DNA from: a virus
Strand: one strand, 5' to 3'
DNA length: 64,000 bases
IMG/VR virus record: IMGVR_UViG_3300038463_000730
Span: 124,001-188,000 of that record
Positions 1,271-21,234 of this stretch are shown piece by piece (within the stretch, counting starts at the first letter, position 1; each line of letters opens with the position of its first letter). A program made the translations under genes and the position numbers. The notes beneath the pieces are model-generated. The model had not been told where the DNA came from, made no database searches, and worked only from the letters and a program-made list of their open reading frames with translations.

Positions 1271-4200
1271 TTAGGATGAACCTGAAGGCACGACCGACAC
1301 ACTATTTGCAACGAAATATTGATTTTCTTGCGCTGTCAATGTCAGAACTTGACCTACAACCCCATCCAAATTAAATGCTGTAACCTGAACGCTGCTAACT
1401 CCAGCAACTCCCTGGGCGACAGCTACCAATGACGATGAACTTAACGTACCTCCAAGTGTATTTGTATTTATAGCAGCAGTTACGGCATTGTTCACGTTTT
1501 GTAGCACGACAGCTGAACCATTAGCATATGTCGAATTAACAACTATTGCCAATGTGATATCAACAAGCAATTCGGTAGCAGCTTTAATCAAAACATCTGC
1601 ACTAATCGGGCGATTTGGTTCCAATGCAACAGTGGATGTTCCGATCAATCCATTGTAATTGAAGTTGATCGTTATTCTCTCGTTTGGTTGAGGTCCGAGG
1701 TAGTTATACGTGGCCAAATATCGTGAGCTGACAACCGGCTGATTCATAGTCGCAACAGTCAATTTCCCAGTGCTGGTCGTATTGAAACCGCTGCTTACAT
1801 AGATCTGATCGATCAGTGCCCAGCCTTTGTTTCCATAGACTGTTCCATTTCGAGTGAAATAGAGGTTCTCCTGGTCACCAATTGTCGCGATATAGAACGT
1901 CGCCTGCAATGTCTGACCAAGTACGATCGGTGTATTCTGGTTGTTTGTTGTTGCTGGCAACCTGATCTGAAGAGGCCCGAGCGCCGGATTCTCGATTGCT
2001 TCATCAGTATAGAACCGAGACGTCCCGATCTGTGACTGAAGCACGTCGTAGGTATTGATCGTCGATACTACGACTCCTTGAGTCATACTGACGCTTTCGA
2101 GATTAACGATACGACACACCTGGATATTCGACGGGATCTGTTCGGCTGAAGTCAAGCCAAGTGCGTTCCGCACAGCCTCGGAGACATCGATAGCCAACCC
2201 AGAGTTGATCGCAGTAAACGTTCCGCTAACCTGCGTAATGGTAGTTCCGACCGCTGTCAGAATACCTTGGTTGTTGATCTGATCCGTCAATGTAGCACTG
2301 AGCTTAGTAAACGACTGACGTAGATTGACCGTGTTCATGTACAAGACGATTACGTCTTCACCACCAACAAACACATGCTGGACAGATGGCGCGAACTCCA
2401 ACGTTCCGGCACTCTGGTTTACTATCGTTCCAATCGCAGATATTTCAAGACCATCCGAGATACGGAACATCACGATCTGGTCTGGAAGAATGTTCGCTGG
2501 AATGGTTAGCCCGGCCAACGAGAATTTACCTCCGGAGTCCAACCCAACGTGGGAGAACTCGTATGACAGAACGGTTGGCACAAACGTCATCGGTTGCGTT
2601 CTCGTGCTATCTAGTACAGAATACAGAATCATGACGTTGTCATTATTTGCCGGGCTGTTATGACCAGTCAAATTCAACGTGTAGAAATTGCTTGAAGAGA
2701 GGGTTACGGTACCGGCATACCCATCGTTCCAAAGTTCCAGACCATCTGACAATCTGATCACGCTGATGATATTGGATGCAAGCAGAGAGTATTCCGGGCT
2801 AGCGATTGACATGGTGATCGTCGCGGTTGACCCGGAACCAACGACACCCTGGTTCTCATTGCAAATCGACATGCCCGTGTTCGACAGTGAGCTGGATTCC
2901 AACGAATCCCGAACGAACCCGTTCCCTTTGCGAGCCAATGGCAAATCGGTAAGGTTGATGTTGAATAGGTTCTGAACGTTCGCTATGTAGTTGATACGGG
3001 CCGCGAACGATGTTGGAGCGGTCGGGTAGTTGCCGATTGGGATCGTGATCTGATTGTTCGTGAAGTTACCAGTTGTACCGGCAACCGTAAAAATGTCAGA
3101 CTCATTCATCAACACGGTAACAAGATTACCTTCGATGGCCTCCGTGTCACCAGGAAGAATGATCGTGCAAATATAGGTTACCTGGGCACCGACGATTACC
3201 TGGACACTTGAGAATGATCCATTGGCCTGGGCTGTATCGTAGATCTCTTCGTTCGTGTTCTGTAGAACGATGCTATTAATGGAAGTTGGCTGCGTTGTCA
3301 GCCCGGTCAATACGACTGAAAGTAGACCGACGAAGATTCCTGTGGCCGGGACAACCGTTGCGTTGACCGTGTTGAACAGGTTCGCTGTGATTACAGCTGA
3401 GATCGGTTCTGACGTCAGCGCGCTAACATACGAGCCACTCGCATTTTGAGTGAAGGTAACAAGTTCTTGACGAATCGCGTTTGAATAACCCCAGTCAACG
3501 CTATCTTGCACCGCACGAGGATTGTTCTGTAGATATAGACCATCAAAGTCAACGTATGGGTCATAGCTAAGAATCCATGTGTAGTCTACTTGCAGTATGT
3601 CGCTGGTAGAAGGTAGCGTGTTGCCATTGATCGTGACTCGGCCAGTCAGGTTGGTTGTGCCGGTTCCATCAGGGTTCTGAGCCACGACAGTATAGCGCTC
3701 GCCTGTTGTCAAATTAAGTACGCGAGTGACATTCGTTGCTGGAACATGATCAAGAAAGATCTGTGAGTGATCCGTCGTGCTGATCATGCTGTTCTCATTC
3801 GTAATCGAGATGTTCGATTGCGCTGATGAGATATTCTCTACGCTCGGGAAGTTTGTCGGGTCCTGGCTGTTGAACCGGGACTTGATCTTGTTCTCCTGGA
3901 AGTCACGAATCTGATCGTCGATCCAAGCAAACGTATCGAATGCCCAGGCTGAACCAGCGTAGACTCCGGTGTCTTTGATGAGCTTGTAGTTACCAGTGAC
4001 TCGGCCGTATCCATCGACTACCATCAGTTGATAGTTCGATCCGCTGACCGATCCGGTTACCTGCGTCAATTCCTGAACTGGTTGTGCCGGTAGTGTACTG
4101 GCTTTTAGATCATTGATTCGTTTGCTCGTGACAGTCAGTCCAGCATCCGCAGCAATTTGCCCAAGAACGAAATTATTCTGGATTGCAGTCGGATTATTTT

Positions 4201-5086
4201 TATTGGAAGCGTCGTGGTAGATGAACGAATCCACGTACTGAGCAATAGTTGTTCCAAGAACATAAACATCGACTTTACCACCGGTGCCCTCCGACAAAAT
4301 TGTGAACGAACCATCTGGGTTCTGTACGACCTGTGTACCGTCACGAACCATCAACGGATCGCCTGGTCCAACTACGACCGCCGCAATGACGTCAGGATTG
4401 GTTAGGACTTGGTTCTGGTAGCCGAGCGCCGTACCGACGTTCGAACCGCTGAAGACTGCCAGTACGCGGTTACGGAAGCTGTTGTCATCTTCTTGGTTTA
4501 CGCCACCGGTAAATCCGAAAATGTTAGTTGCGTTCGAAACGCCAGAAATAGAAGTGCTAACAATACCATATTGCGAAATGTTGCCAACGACGCCAGGCGT
4601 CGTGGCCTGAACTGCAATCTCGACCGCATATTGATCCGTGATTCCTAGAAATTGTAAGTTCGTACCATAGCGGGTCGCGACAGCACGATACGAGTTAAGA
4701 TTTGTCGGATCAACCGAGATACCGTTCAGAACAGTGAACGATGTTCCATTTGTAGATGATACGAGCGAGCCCTGTGAAATCGGAATAGATGTCGGAATCG
4801 ATGCGAACGTTAACAGCGCAACACCGCTTGCTGGAGCAGCCTGTTTACGGGTCACACCGTAGTTTTGAGCCAATGTGTCCAAATTCGAGCCAACCGACAT
4901 TTGTAATGATGACAAGTCGCTTGTCTGCGAAAGTTGATCATAAAGCAAACTAAGTTGATTGGCCTGAAGCTCGACAAACAAATCTCGTCCTACTGTTCCT
5001 GGCTTTGTATCAAGATTCGGCTGTTTGATTCTTAAGAAATCAAGCAAATTCTGAATAAGTTGGTCTGCATTTAGTATATTTACCAC
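1271..5086 (-). CDS. Baseplate wedge protein, J-like (gp6/gpJ family)
   Basis: A 1271-residue protein starting at GTG, with GGAG placed 5 bases upstream. The first 250 residues carry the baseplate J signature: an N-terminal helix with PGTVGRDLFVELQAN, a GSNLDTLAQNYGVTRKQA segment, then TPGVVGNI and the GGVNQEDDNSFRNRVL motif. Proteins of this family (P2 gpJ, T4 gp6) form the ring of wedge dimers that clamps the hub and triggers sheath contraction. The remaining 900 or more residues are beta-rich and far exceed the usual 300-600, so it has probably gained peripheral domains. It follows the gp25-like gene by 12 bases, the conserved order in contractile tails. It contains two Asp-Gly-Tyr motifs. 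Confidence 0.88.
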   Translation of the reverse strand: MVNILNADQLIQNLLDFLRIKQPNLDTKPGTVGRDLFVELQANQLSLLYDQLSQTSDLSSLQMSVGSNLDTLAQNYGVTRKQAAPASGVALLTFASIPTSIPISQGSLVSSTNGTSFTVLNGISVDPTNLNSYRAVATRYGTNLQFLGITDQYAVEIAVQATTPGVVGNISQYGIVSTSISGVSNATNIFGFTGGVNQEDDNSFRNRVLAVFSGSNVGTALGYQNQVLTNPDVIAAVVVGPGDPLMVRDGTQVVQNPDGSFTILSEGTGGKVDVYVLGTTIAQYVDSFIYHDASNKNNPTAIQNNFVLGQIAADAGLTVTSKRINDLKASTLPAQPVQELTQVTGSVSGSNYQLMVVDGYGRVTGNYKLIKDTGVYAGSAWAFDTFAWIDDQIRDFQENKIKSRFNSQDPTNFPSVENISSAQSNISITNENSMISTTDHSQIFLDHVPATNVTRVLNLTTGERYTVVAQNPDGTGTTNLTGRVTINGNTLPSTSDILQVDYTWILSYDPYVDFDGLYLQNNPRAVQDSVDWGYSNAIRQELVTFTQNASGSYVSALTSEPISAVITANLFNTVNATVVPATGIFVGLLSVVLTGLTTQPTSINSIVLQNTNEEIYDTAQANGSFSSVQVIVGAQVTYICTIILPGDTEAIEGNLVTVLMNESDIFTVAGTTGNFTNNQITIPIGNYPTAPTSFAARINYIANVQNLFNINLTDLPLARKGNGFVRDSLESSSLSNTGMSICNENQGVVGSGSTATITMSIASPEYSLLASNIISVIRLSDGLELWNDGYAGTVTLSSSNFYTLNLTGHNSPANNDNVMILYSVLDSTRTQPMTFVPTVLSYEFSHVGLDSGGKFSLAGLTIPANILPDQIVMFRISDGLEISAIGTIVNQSAGTLEFAPSVQHVFVGGEDVIVLYMNTVNLRQSFTKLSATLTDQINNQGILTAVGTTITQVSGTFTAINSGLAIDVSEAVRNALGLTSAEQIPSNIQVCRIVNLESVSMTQGVVVSTINTYDVLQSQIGTSRFYTDEAIENPALGPLQIRLPATTNNQNTPIVLGQTLQATFYIATIGDQENLYFTRNGTVYGNKGWALIDQIYVSSGFNTTSTGKLTVATMNQPVVSSRYLATYNYLGPQPNERITINFNYNGLIGTSTVALEPNRPISADVLIKAATELLVDITLAIVVNSTYANGSAVVLQNVNNAVTAAINTNTLGGTLSSSSLVAVAQGVAGVSSVQVTAFNLDGVVGQVLTLTAQENQYFVANSVSVVPSGSS

Positions 5087-16934: not shown

Positions 16935-17855
16935 TTAGAATTGAACACTTACATCTACCGGCACTCCTCCGATGTTTAGCCCGTTCTGATCTGTATTCGA
17001 AGTATTGTTTACAGCTAGTAAACGACCTGGATTCATTAGATTGGTCGCCTGTGCTGTTTGCTGAAATGTCAACGGAATACCGCCATAACCGTTATTGCTC
17101 GGGCCCAACGTCGGAGTACGCTGCCATGGCATATTATTCGTACGATATCCACGACGCTGTGTTACGACGAAGTGAATAGTGTAATCAAATCCACCGACGA
17201 AATTGGTACTCTCGGTCCAGTTCATACTGGTAAAGTAACCGCGAAATACCCATCCATTAAAATACATCTCTACGCCAAGCGCCATGCTTACCAATGTCGT
17301 GGTGTTCTGTGGTAATGCGCCACCAAACGTTGCATCAGCATCCAAGATGCCGCCACCGATCGCACTACCGATTGATCCGAGTACAGATGTCGAGCTACCG
17401 CCTGTTCCGGCGCCCGAGAGAGCAGAACCGGCATCTCCTAGAATCGAACTGAGTCCCGAACTGGTTTGAGCCGTAGCCAAGTTCAGCCCGACTGCGTCAA
17501 AACTAAGTTGCTCGGCACGGTAGACCTCATGAAGAAGATTCAGCCCTTCGACACCGGATGAACCGGTCGTGCCACGCATATCAATCTCGGTCAGATCTTC
17601 TCCCCAGTATTGGATTAGGTATCCACCTTTTGTGAGTTGTTTCGAGATGATCTTTTTGTTGTTGTATTGAATCGACTCCGGGCTGACATACATCGCAACA
17701 ACGCCGAATTCCGGCACAAACCAATTTACAACAGAGCGTTTCTGATTGGCCGCTTTAATACCATACGGAATGCTCTGGTATGGTAAACCCTGAGCACCTG
17801 AATTGGCCCCGTTCGCAAATGACGAGCCTACGAGTGAACTATCGAGATAAGTCAT
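16935..17855 (-). CDS. Tail-baseplate junction protein, probable tube initiator
   Basis: A 306-residue protein between tape measure and hub. Residues of about 40-110 (VAMYVSPESIQYNNKKIISK, then LIQYWGEDLTEIDMRGTTG) and 190-240 (GVEMYFNGWVFRGYFTSMNW) give the split beta-barrel pattern of tube-like baseplate proteins. A Gly/Ser/Ala-rich insertion lies at about 125-180. Proteins at this position in other myoviruses cap the tail tube and join it to the hub. No clear Shine-Dalgarno precedes the ATG, 14 bases after the tape measure stop. Function is inferred from position and fold-like pattern. Confidence 0.72.
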   Translation of the reverse strand: MTYLDSSLVGSSFANGANSGAQGLPYQSIPYGIKAANQKRSVVNWFVPEFGVVAMYVSPESIQYNNKKIISKQLTKGGYLIQYWGEDLTEIDMRGTTGSSGVEGLNLLHEVYRAEQLSFDAVGLNLATAQTSSGLSSILGDAGSALSGAGTGGSSTSVLGSIGSAIGGGILDADATFGGALPQNTTTLVSMALGVEMYFNGWVFRGYFTSMNWTESTNFVGGFDYTIHFVVTQRRGYRTNNMPWQRTPTLGPSNNGYGGIPLTFQQTAQATNLMNPGRLLAVNNTSNTDQNGLNIGGVPVDVSVQF

Positions 17856-17869
17856 ACACAGATGCCAAA

Positions 17870-20110
17870 TTAGGCATTGCGATTGGCTCCGCCCGTGCGA
17901 TTCATGATTTGACGGTTCTCTGTCATCGCCGTAGCAGTAGCAGCAACATTATCAACCATCGTCTCTTGCTGACACTTGATGCAAACACCCTTGATCTCAC
18001 CCGTTACAGCGATCGTCGTTTGTGCCGGTTGTGCCGCTGGAGGGGCTGCTTGCTGAGCTTCGGCGGCAGTACGGACATTGCTCGCTGTCGGACCTACCGG
18101 GCTAGCGGCAGCCGTTGCGGCAGCAATCCGTTCATGAACGGCGCGGTTCTGTTCATCTGGAGATACTCCAATAGTTCGTTGCTCGTCTTTCGCCTTACCA
18201 ACAGAAGCTTCGATCGCTTTGGTTATGTCAGGTGCATTGGTAGCTGTTGGAACGGGAGTGGATGTCGGAGGTGGTGGAGGCGGACCGATGAACGGAGCCG
18301 GTGGCGCTGGAGTCGATGTCGGAACAGAGGTCGGTGTAGCTCCGGCCGCTGTCTGCATCTGGGCAAGCTTAGCCGCAGCCGCTTTATCATCTGCTTCTTT
18401 CGCAGCATCTTGATCAGAAAATGCTTTTACAGCACCAGTAGCAAGATTTTTGGCATACTCTCCTGCTTCAATTAGTTTGTTTTTAACTAGTTCATCTGGA
18501 GACAATCCGGAACCACGTTCTATTGCTGCCGCATTACCTTGAGCATCTTTCGAATGCTTTGCGATATCGGCCCCGGTTAGTTGCTTGTCTTTATTAAGTA
18601 TCGAAATACCAAGCTGGATATCCTGGGCCGCAGCAATTGCGTTGACCGCATTACGAATCTCGGTCACAGACGTATGCATTTTGTCTTGGACCGACGAGCC
18701 TTGTTCAGCAGTTTTAGCAACTGCTTTATCACCAGTTGGTGGCTCTAGTCCTTGACCTTCAAATCGTCCTTCTTTCATTGCCTGAAAGACCTTCGCCTCT
18801 TCACCTTTATCTAGTTTCTTTCCTGTGATCTTTTCCCACATCTCACGCTGTTTCTCGTATTGTGAAGCGGCCTGACCCGAGATATCGGCTGCGGCTTCAG
18901 CGCGTGTCACGATCTCTCCTCCAACGGAGTCTTTCATCGTCTTCATCAGGTCTTGTGCAGCGCCCTTCTTATCATTGGCAAGTTTCTCTTCGAACGCAAA
19001 TACACCTTGCAGGCCTCCGGCTCCACCGGATGTCGTACTGATGTACGACTCGGTTGCATCACTCAAGCCTGACATCGCTCCCATGATATCGCCGAACACT
19101 TTCGTAGCTTGGTGCCCGGACAATCCTACACCTTCCATTGCAGGGATAAACAATCCCATTGCCTTAACTGTATCATCAACATTGTCTGACATCATAGCGA
19201 ATTGACCAGCTACACTCTGGACAGCATCACGAACGTCTCCCATCGGCAACTGGAGAGACTGTTGCGCAGAAGCCAAGTTAGCTGAATATTGGATTTGTTT
19301 TTGAAGGTCTCCACTTAAATTTTCATAAGCGAAATGAGCATCTTTAATAACCTGTGATGTCTCCTGCATCGACCCAGCAGCAATTTTACTAATAGCCGTT
19401 AACGTGTCCATCGATTCACCAGCTACTTTCACATTACCACTTAGCGCAGTAGGAATAGTCGAAAGCTCAGTGAGTGACTTCGAGATCTCTTTCGGAGCCA
19501 TACCGGTTGCACTAGCAATCTGCTGCATCTTCTCATTGAAAGACGCCATTTTACTATCAATGTCCGTTAATCCACGATTATCATCGAACACGTTTTTAAA
19601 GTCGCCACCGGCAACATTCAACGCCATGAACCCTTTTTCTAATTGCTGAGTTCGTTCGGCTGCACCGATAGCGTTATCACCTATATTTTTGAAAGCGCTG
19701 ATCAACATGTCTGCGCCAGGGATCTTTCCACCAAGTTTTTCTGCTATTGTTATTACATTAGCGACATGTTCTTTTAATGCTTTCGCAGCTTCGCTAATAG
19801 AAGAAGCGCTTGTTAATGCTGAGCCACCAAGTTGATCGAAACCTTCAGCGGCACCAAGCAAATCCAATGTAACATGTTCTAGGTTAGAACCAAGATTGAT
19901 AGCGCCGGTCCCGAATGCATTTAGTTTCTCAGTTAATGATCCGGCAGTATCTTTGAATCGTTCGGCTGCTGGCATGAGCGATTTGAACTGTTCGAAAAAG
20001 TGTCCAAGATTGGTAGTTATTGAAGGCAACGTACCGGCAAGACGCTCAAGAGCGTCTACTGCCGGACCAACACCTTCTAGTAATTTACCTGCTTCGTCTG
20101 CTACTGCCAT
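17870..20110 (-). CDS. Tail tape measure protein
   Basis: A 746-residue, mostly helical protein rich in Ala, Lys, Glu and Gln with a coiled-coil N-terminus, directly after the frameshifted chaperone genes, the invariant place of tape measure genes. It sets tail length and is ejected during infection. A Pro/Thr-rich linker spans about residues 590-640 (including a run of six Pro), and a CIKCQ motif near residue 708 could bind a metal. At roughly 1.5 angstrom per residue the length would correspond to a tail of the order of 110 nm; this is a rule-of-thumb estimate. No transglycosylase or peptidase domain is visible. Confidence 0.82.
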   Translation of the reverse strand: MAVADEAGKLLEGVGPAVDALERLAGTLPSITTNLGHFFEQFKSLMPAAERFKDTAGSLTEKLNAFGTGAINLGSNLEHVTLDLLGAAEGFDQLGGSALTSASSISEAAKALKEHVANVITIAEKLGGKIPGADMLISAFKNIGDNAIGAAERTQQLEKGFMALNVAGGDFKNVFDDNRGLTDIDSKMASFNEKMQQIASATGMAPKEISKSLTELSTIPTALSGNVKVAGESMDTLTAISKIAAGSMQETSQVIKDAHFAYENLSGDLQKQIQYSANLASAQQSLQLPMGDVRDAVQSVAGQFAMMSDNVDDTVKAMGLFIPAMEGVGLSGHQATKVFGDIMGAMSGLSDATESYISTTSGGAGGLQGVFAFEEKLANDKKGAAQDLMKTMKDSVGGEIVTRAEAAADISGQAASQYEKQREMWEKITGKKLDKGEEAKVFQAMKEGRFEGQGLEPPTGDKAVAKTAEQGSSVQDKMHTSVTEIRNAVNAIAAAQDIQLGISILNKDKQLTGADIAKHSKDAQGNAAAIERGSGLSPDELVKNKLIEAGEYAKNLATGAVKAFSDQDAAKEADDKAAAAKLAQMQTAAGATPTSVPTSTPAPPAPFIGPPPPPPTSTPVPTATNAPDITKAIEASVGKAKDEQRTIGVSPDEQNRAVHERIAAATAAASPVGPTASNVRTAAEAQQAAPPAAQPAQTTIAVTGEIKGVCIKCQQETMVDNVAATATAMTENRQIMNRTGGANRNA

Positions 20111-20125
20111 TCAGATACCCCGTAA

Positions 20126-20440
20126 TTATCCAACTACCTTTTTCTTCTTACGACGACGACGTGGACCAGAGTTGCTCTGGCTGTCTTTGTCCAAGTTCGC
20201 CTGGTGAATTCGTTGCGAAAGGAGTTCGAACTCCGTATCATCAGATGCGTAAGTATTAGCCTCGGCATCAAGGATACGTTTGGCTGCTTCTGGGTTGGTG
20301 AATGATCCAATAAACAAAGCAAGATGCCGTTGGCTCTCAGCTTTTTCTCGACGATCCTGAACCCACTGCTCAAACAAATACAGTTTCTCAATTGGCTCAA
20401 GATCTTCGATCATTGGATCGTTAGGTTTACAACGCCACAT
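20126..20440 (-). CDS. Tail assembly chaperone, downstream (-1) frame of the fusion
   Basis: This is the second part of a G/GT-type tail assembly chaperone. From ATG 20440 the frame encodes 104 residues, but it is open upstream and joins the preceding gene in the -1 frame at the A7 slippery run (20485-20491), adding 15 codons (20441-20485) before this ATG. The product would be a fusion of about 369 residues. The segment is helical and acidic to basic, ending in RRRRKKKKVVG. No good Shine-Dalgarno precedes the ATG, so it is probably made only as the fusion. The lambda G/GT paradigm says the fusion binds the tape measure and recruits tube subunits. Confidence 0.85.
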   Translation of the reverse strand: MWRCKPNDPMIEDLEPIEKLYLFEQWVQDRREKAESQRHLALFIGSFTNPEAAKRILDAEANTYASDDTEFELLSQRIHQANLDKDSQSNSGPRRRRKKKKVVG

Positions 20441-20458
20441 TTTACAAAGTGACCATAT

Positions 20459-20491
20459 GAACCGGTGTTCCGGTTCAGCGGCTATTTTTTT
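20459..20491 (-). promoter_or_regulatory. Programmed -1 ribosomal frameshift signal
   Basis: The slippery heptamer A AAA AAA (20485-20491, read GCA AAA AAA TAG in frame 0) is followed by an 8-base spacer. Then comes a perfect 7-bp hairpin, GAACCGG / CCGGTTC with loop AACA (20459-20476). The frame-0 stop TAG (20482-20484) is immediately after the slippery run. Slipping one base back reads ATA GCC GCT GAA and joins the downstream chaperone frame without a stop. Confidence 0.92.
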
Positions 20492-21234
20492 GCGTCTTCA
20501 ATAACCTCTTTCAACTGTGCATCAGTCTTGATCGCAAAATTGTCACGAGCTTGATTATCCATCGCTCCAAGTTCAGCATGCAAATACTTCTGTAAAGAAA
20601 GGTCAAGGTCTTCAACCCATTCGAGTCGTGCTTCAAAATCTTCTGTACCCAATACCTGATCAATCGGTACTCCGTCGATACGATAGATGGCGTAGGCAAG
20701 TTCTTGGCGTCTCGCTTCGAATACGATCTCAAGTTTCGGCACATTCGTTACGGCTCGCACAGCTTCACGCATCTCACGTGCTTTTAACGTACGTAAGGAA
20801 AAAACAGTCGGGTGGTCTCCACCTTGAACCGTAACATCTTTTTTGATGCGGCCTAGTCCGGCGAGATACTCCATCCGTTCACGTCCAAAAGACGAAATCG
20901 GGATATTGCCGGAAGTCTTCTGACGACGAAGCGCAGACATCTCAGCTTCAATACGCGCAGTTTCCTCCGAACGATTCACCATCTCTTGCTGACGACGTTG
21001 ACGATCGTGCTCTTCACGATATGGATTAACCGGCTGACCTTGAGCCTGCTGATATTGGGGCTGCTGATAAAGCTCGGACCCCTGCATGTCACCATACTGA
21101 GGAGGAGCCCCGACAAATCCACGTTGCGGGGGCTGCTCAGACGTAACATCGGGAACTTCGAATGTACGATGTTCCCGACGAGGTCTAACCTGTTGCTGAG
21201 GATTATTGATCGAGCTGTTAATTCCTGGTGGCAT
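20482..21234 (-). CDS. Tail assembly chaperone, upstream (frame 0) product
   Basis: A 250-residue protein between the tube gene and the tape measure gene. The first 90 residues are Gln/Pro-rich and disordered (QQPQYQQAQGQPVNPYREE). The remainder is helical, with a KKDVTVQGGDHPTVFSLRTL strand segment and an MREAVRAVTNVP segment as in tail assembly chaperones of large myoviruses. It ends at the A7 frameshift site, so two products are expected: this protein and a longer fusion. An AT-rich box (TATATA) lies about 35 bases upstream of the ATG. It is not expected in the mature virion. Confidence 0.85.
   Translation of the reverse strand: MPPGINSSINNPQQQVRPRREHRTFEVPDVTSEQPPQRGFVGAPPQYGDMQGSELYQQPQYQQAQGQPVNPYREEHDRQRRQQEMVNRSEETARIEAEMSALRRQKTSGNIPISSFGRERMEYLAGLGRIKKDVTVQGGDHPTVFSLRTLKAREMREAVRAVTNVPKLEIVFEARRQELAYAIYRIDGVPIDQVLGTEDFEARLEWVEDLDLSLQKYLHAELGAMDNQARDNFAIKTDAQLKEVIEDAKK

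Follow-up and report, generated by a model that had tools for sequence, protein, structure and literature searches.

A probable ribosomal -1 frameshift linking the two parts of a tail assembly chaperone in an uncultured group of jumbo phages

Two overlapping reading frames on the minus strand of a viral DNA stretch of 64,000 nucleotides (hereafter, the window) raise the question of whether they are separate genes or the two parts of one protein joined by a programmed frameshift. The window belongs to a virus record of 434,688 bp, and its source is therefore a jumbo phage. The first-pass annotation had proposed a -1 frameshift in a tail assembly chaperone and had warned that the two parts would otherwise look like separate genes; gene callers would list two genes and overlook the fusion. 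The sequence of the locus is as had been described. The 0-frame ORF (21234-20482, minus strand) ends GAC GCA AAA AAA TAG, and its heptamer A AAA AAA fits the X XXY YYZ pattern in the correct frame. The -1 frame starts ATA GCC GCT GAA at 20485 and stops at 20126, and its 119 codons comprise 15 codons followed by the 104-aa ATG ORF, in agreement with the fusion of about 369 residues that had been claimed. The predicted fusion has 369 aa and the junction EDAKK-IAAEPEHRF (EDAKKIAAEPEHR). The window contains fewer runs of seven A than expected (6 vs 14.6). The features of the locus are listed in Table 1.

Table 1. Features of the chaperone locus in the window
Feature	Position	Strand	Remarks
0-frame product, short tail assembly chaperone (G-like)	20482..21234	-	250 aa; homology and 2OB9-like fold
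Slippery heptamer A AAA AAA	20485..20491	-	invariant, 98/98 loci
0-frame stop TAG, adjoining the heptamer	20482..20484	-	
Shine-Dalgarno-like GAGG (inside AAAGAGGT)	20505..20508	-	13 nt 5' of the heptamer
Hairpin 3' of the heptamer, 8 bp (UGAACCGG / CCGGUUCA), loop AACA	20458..20477	-	spacer 7 nt
-1 frame, T-like C-terminal domain of the predicted fusion, 119 aa	20126..20485	-	protein conserved from codon 1
Apparent separate ATG ORF, 104 aa	20126..20440	-	start not conserved; most likely an ORF-calling artefact
Putative tape measure protein, 746 aa	17870..20110	-	position only
Putative tail tube protein, 217 aa	21299..21952	-	position only
Tail sheath, 938 aa	21979..24795	-	phrog_2839, E=6.6e-15

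The locus was compared with relatives from IMG/VR. Related loci were found by amino-acid patterns and not by the heptamer, and the slip site was read mechanically in each fetched locus after the -1 domain had been located. This yielded 98 distinct loci, from which 87 representatives with less than 85% identity were taken. The heptamer, whose conservation the first-pass annotation had named as a check, is A AAA AAA in 98/98 loci, and in every one of them the 0-frame stop lies 0 or 1 codon after it. Both Lys codons are AAA in all 87 representatives, while AAA makes up 69% of the Lys codons nearby. The base 5' of the two Lys codons is A throughout, whatever codon it belongs to (CTA, TTA, ATA, GTA or GCA), and the base after the heptamer is T in 86/87. 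Six relatives that were reached via the sheath gene alone, two of which are near-identical (L011 and L012), all carry the slip site, with no bias towards the chaperone in how they were found. Given its conservation in 98 distinct related sequences, the slip site is almost certainly real. All known members of the group come from metagenomes: the 50,697 phage records of INPHARED, queried with the DNA, with the 0-frame protein and with the -1 domain from a relative, gave no match, so no close isolate is present in that collection, and a search of genome contigs for relatives found none. An Rfam search of the region also gave no match.

Upstream of the heptamer the relatives share an element that was absent from the earlier annotation, a Shine-Dalgarno (SD)-like sequence with the family consensus AAGGAGGT, placed 13 nt 5' of the slip site. 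The Glu codon at position -8 is GAG in 73/78 representatives against a background of 30%. Predicted pairing with the anti-SD averages -10.4 kcal/mol, compared with -4.5 kcal/mol when synonymous codons are shuffled (z=-17), and this signal is confined to a single spot, no other nearby position showing anything similar. A published rule (Sharma et al. 2014, PMC4066793) asks for an SD-like sequence 6-17 nt upstream, and according to it 81/87 representatives have an SD stimulator, including the window with its GAGG; a distance of 9-14 nt is the working range for -1 shifts (review, PMC5009743). The window's own element is rather weak, at -7.0 kcal/mol the 10th weakest of the 87. Judged by this comparison of sequences, the SD-like element is the best-supported stimulator at this slip site, and it is more strongly conserved than the downstream hairpin.

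For the hairpin, a perfect 7-bp stem had been reported, GAACCGG (20476-20470) with CCGGTTC (20465-20459), after a spacer of 8 nt. The stem stands, but its length and spacer need correction to 8 bp and 7 nt because U20477 and A20458 pair as well. The local fold reaches -15.8 kcal/mol, compared with -7.1 +/- 2.3 kcal/mol in shuffled sequences (z=-3.9; 1/200 equally stable). Its spacer lies within the 4-10 nt asked of the downstream structure in a -1 signal. In the relatives this structure is imperfect yet selected. Of the stem pairs in the relatives, 81% are standard, and in pairing the stem ranks first among 1431 hairpins of the same size in the region. Codon choice favours local folding exactly at the stem, with z=-10 in the synonymous-codon test, the strongest of the windows tested, although other windows reach |6.6|. 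Compensatory changes, which had been put forward as a second check, are present but modest: 24 paired cells are doubly changed, compared with 10.3 +/- 2.3 in shuffles and with far lower values in all slid versions, and the excess of pairing (p=0.0005, columns simulated independently along a FastTree tree) is carried by two pairs. The middle pair is open in 61/86 rows and the stem is fully paired in about 9/87, and the openness of the middle pair in most rows explains why RNAalifold found no consensus stem over the 87 rows. The hairpin of the window, second strongest among the 87, is thus not typical. Of the signal that had been called textbook and unusually clear, the slip site and the stop hold up, while perfect stems prove to be the exception, since most relatives have an imperfect one. 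On this pattern of pairing, we regard the hairpin as a real but secondary stimulator with modest covariation. Across the 87 representatives, a stronger SD does not trade off against a weaker hairpin or the reverse (Spearman 0.13, p=0.24). A longer-range stem of GGAACATCG with CGATGATCC, suggested by single folds, was not supported by screens for pairing and covariation over its span.

Protein-level conservation of the -1 frame sets in at codon 1, with the pattern IxxEPEHRFxW. In 38 diverse rows, residues I1, F9, W41 and F62 are invariant and E4, P5, H7, R8 and W11 nearly so; all but two of the conserved residues precede the window's ATG, which lies at codon 16. From the slip site to codon 15, conservation at the three codon positions is 1.44, 1.64 and 0.76 bits. 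In the relatives, the first ATG of the -1 frame is found anywhere from codon 1 to codon 37, mostly at 28-29, with no ATG common to them, and it lacks an SD (mean -0.8 kcal/mol). For these reasons the separate 104-aa ATG gene most likely exists only as a product of mechanical ORF calling. The proposed -1 frameshift is thus upheld by the relatives, at the level of sequence, through both the 98/98 heptamers and the conserved -1 protein.

The evidence that the 0-frame protein is a tail assembly chaperone comes mainly from its sequence profile. Scans of Pfam and PHROG with both parts found no family. However, the profile of the 0-frame family matches the annotated, frameshifted chaperones of Myrna, Pupper, Eggerthella phage LE2-3 and phage G in hhalign (97.5%, E=7.6e-12), and the identity that had been assigned to the gene is thereby borne out. 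The AlphaFold2 model has a confident core at residues 111-250. Realigned with VIA, this core finds its best PDB match in 2OB9, the tail assembly chaperone of HK97 (Z 9.1, 101/107 residues), followed by YqbN, 3KLU (Z 8.0), where unrelated rows score about 5 and the tool itself warns that Z 7-8 can be due to chance; the sequence profile therefore weighs more than the fold match. A library of viral structures returned Gp181/Gp182 of phage G, Gp181 with a probability of 1.00, while Foldseek against the PDB gave no significant match for either model. For the -1 domain, the model is all helical, with no solved counterpart in the Foldseek search of the PDB, and the match to the C-terminal domains of annotated chaperones is weak (41% probability, E=2.8e-4, 54 columns). 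Among the neighbours, the sheath is confirmed by its family match, while the tube and tape measure genes are named by position only, and a profile comparison of these two with their isolate-phage counterparts found no match. The sheath is unusually long, known sheaths matching only its C-terminal 175 residues. Elsewhere in the window, the 1271-aa product of 1271-5086 (minus strand) contains a Baseplate_J domain (PF04865, E=1.1e-20). A 231-aa ATG ORF (17780-18475, plus strand) lies antisense to the putative tape measure gene; its translation is of low complexity and rich in Arg, Ser and Cys, and it is probably a chance ORF.

The same fusion protein could also be made from an edited mRNA, if RNA polymerase added one A at the run of seven. 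The run is all A, the junction peptide would be the same, and runs of more than 7 A have been cited for transcriptional realignment (PMC3711429). In the relatives, however, the run is exactly 7 and never longer, and it is bounded by T on each side in 86/87 (the window itself has C before the run). Moreover, a selected SD at a fixed distance and a hairpin are needed by the ribosomal mechanism only. The poly-A heptamer together with these two elements therefore favours ribosomal -1 slippage, and we consider transcriptional slippage unlikely. Readthrough of the TAG is less probable still. The same genome has a tRNA with a CUA anticodon, and TAG is seldom used as a stop on the coding strand, where it ends 3 of the 42 longest ORFs (among them the chaperone frame beside the slip site) against 35 for TAA. 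Yet the codon after the heptamer in the representatives is TAA (54), TAG (24) or a sense codon (9), and readthrough would add just 23 residues unrelated to the conserved domain, making a third product at most.

A reading as two separate genes, in which the 104-aa ORF begins at its own ATG by coupled re-initiation, can point to the ATG that the window has as codon 16 of its -1 frame. It has to contend with 15 codons 5' of that ATG that are conserved as protein and with the scattered, SD-less first ATGs of the relatives, and it leaves the invariant heptamer unexplained; we hold it to be highly improbable. Homopolymers are prone to error, and an indel in assembly might have split a single gene, but this explanation retains practically no likelihood, being already refuted by the relatives: 98 distinct sequences, drawn from many metagenomes, and the isolate Eggerthella phage LE2-3 all show this arrangement.

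Several tRNA genes of this phage group are unusual. The phage carries an odd tRNA cluster (L193 367-1572, minus strand; about 373600-374804 of its own genome, G000:C1) with the CUA-anticodon (amber) tRNA, a Lys-like tRNA that lacks one base in its anticodon loop (6 nt, UUUUAA), and two tRNAs with apparent 8-nt loops by canonical spacing, to which ARAGORN assigns 2-base anticodons. It also encodes a normal tRNA-Lys(UUU). Tuning of the shift by the phage's own tRNAs, with the short-loop Lys tRNA favouring two-base decoding and -1 slips on A-runs like A AAA AAA in the course of infection, strikes us as very doubtful; the odd genes could be decoding variants or decaying genes. CUA-anticodon tRNAs also occur, sometimes as two adjacent genes, in relatives (L233 of G014, L238 of G015, L245 of G016 and L249 of G019), and several large relatives have 34 to 56 tRNA matches each.

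We therefore read the locus, with a probability of roughly 93%, as a chaperone pair of the lambda G/GT type in a large contractile-tailed phage, expressed by a ribosomal -1 shift that is aided by an SD and a hairpin. Most ribosomes would terminate at the TAG after the heptamer and release the short chaperone of 250 aa. A minority would be slowed and pulled back by SD:anti-SD pairing 13 nt upstream and by the hairpin 7-8 nt downstream, whereupon the two lysyl-tRNAs would re-pair by -1 on A AAA AAA, giving the 369-aa fusion with its C-terminal domain of 119 aa. By analogy with lambda, the tape measure protein may be coated by the short form, while the long form may bring in tube subunits. Reporters in E. 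coli gave 10% frameshifting at a 7-A site from another gene and 6-7% at phage chaperone sites (PMC3711429), and on these rates a yield of a few percent may fairly be expected at this locus. The comparison identifies the tail assembly chaperones of a group of large phages that is widespread and uncultured, with records of up to 480 kb; for the tail genes of this group, family libraries offer almost no match. Since the slip site is fixed in 87 divergent representatives and both stimulators vary, the relative weight of SD and hairpin becomes testable.

The arrangement resembles lambda gpG/gpGT and the wider frameshifted class, in which the pair precedes the tape measure gene, as it precedes the putative one here, and a -1 shift shortly before the first frame ends yields a short and a long product (PMC5009743); unlike them, the window has A AAA AAA with an internal SD and a pair matching no PHROG or Pfam family. 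Homologous 0-frame proteins are found in Myrna of the cluster C mycobacteriophages (gp126/127), Gordonia phage Pupper (gp117/118) and Bacillus phage G (gp181/182). In these three the gene order after the sheath is also alike, with sheath, structural gene, chaperone as a joined CDS and tape measure (the last only putative in the window), while the slippery sites differ (A AAA AAC in phage G, a GGGAAAA region in the actinophages Myrna and Pupper) and the C-terminal domains barely resemble that of the window. The isolate LE2-3 has a related but much diverged chaperone, LE23_86/87, with the identical site CTAAAAAAATAA and GAGG 13 nt upstream. It was deposited as two separate genes; the chaperone (L182 8075-8811) has A AAA AAA TAA, and the two annotations should probably be joined. 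The E. coli dnaX heptamer is A AAA AAG, with an SD spacing of about 10 nt. This unrelated gene shares with the window a poly-A heptamer, an SD-like element upstream and a hairpin downstream (review, PMC5009743). In conclusion, the frameshifted tail chaperone is a well-known device, and the uncultured jumbo phages compared here would use it with a strongly conserved slip site and a signal that combines SD and hairpin.
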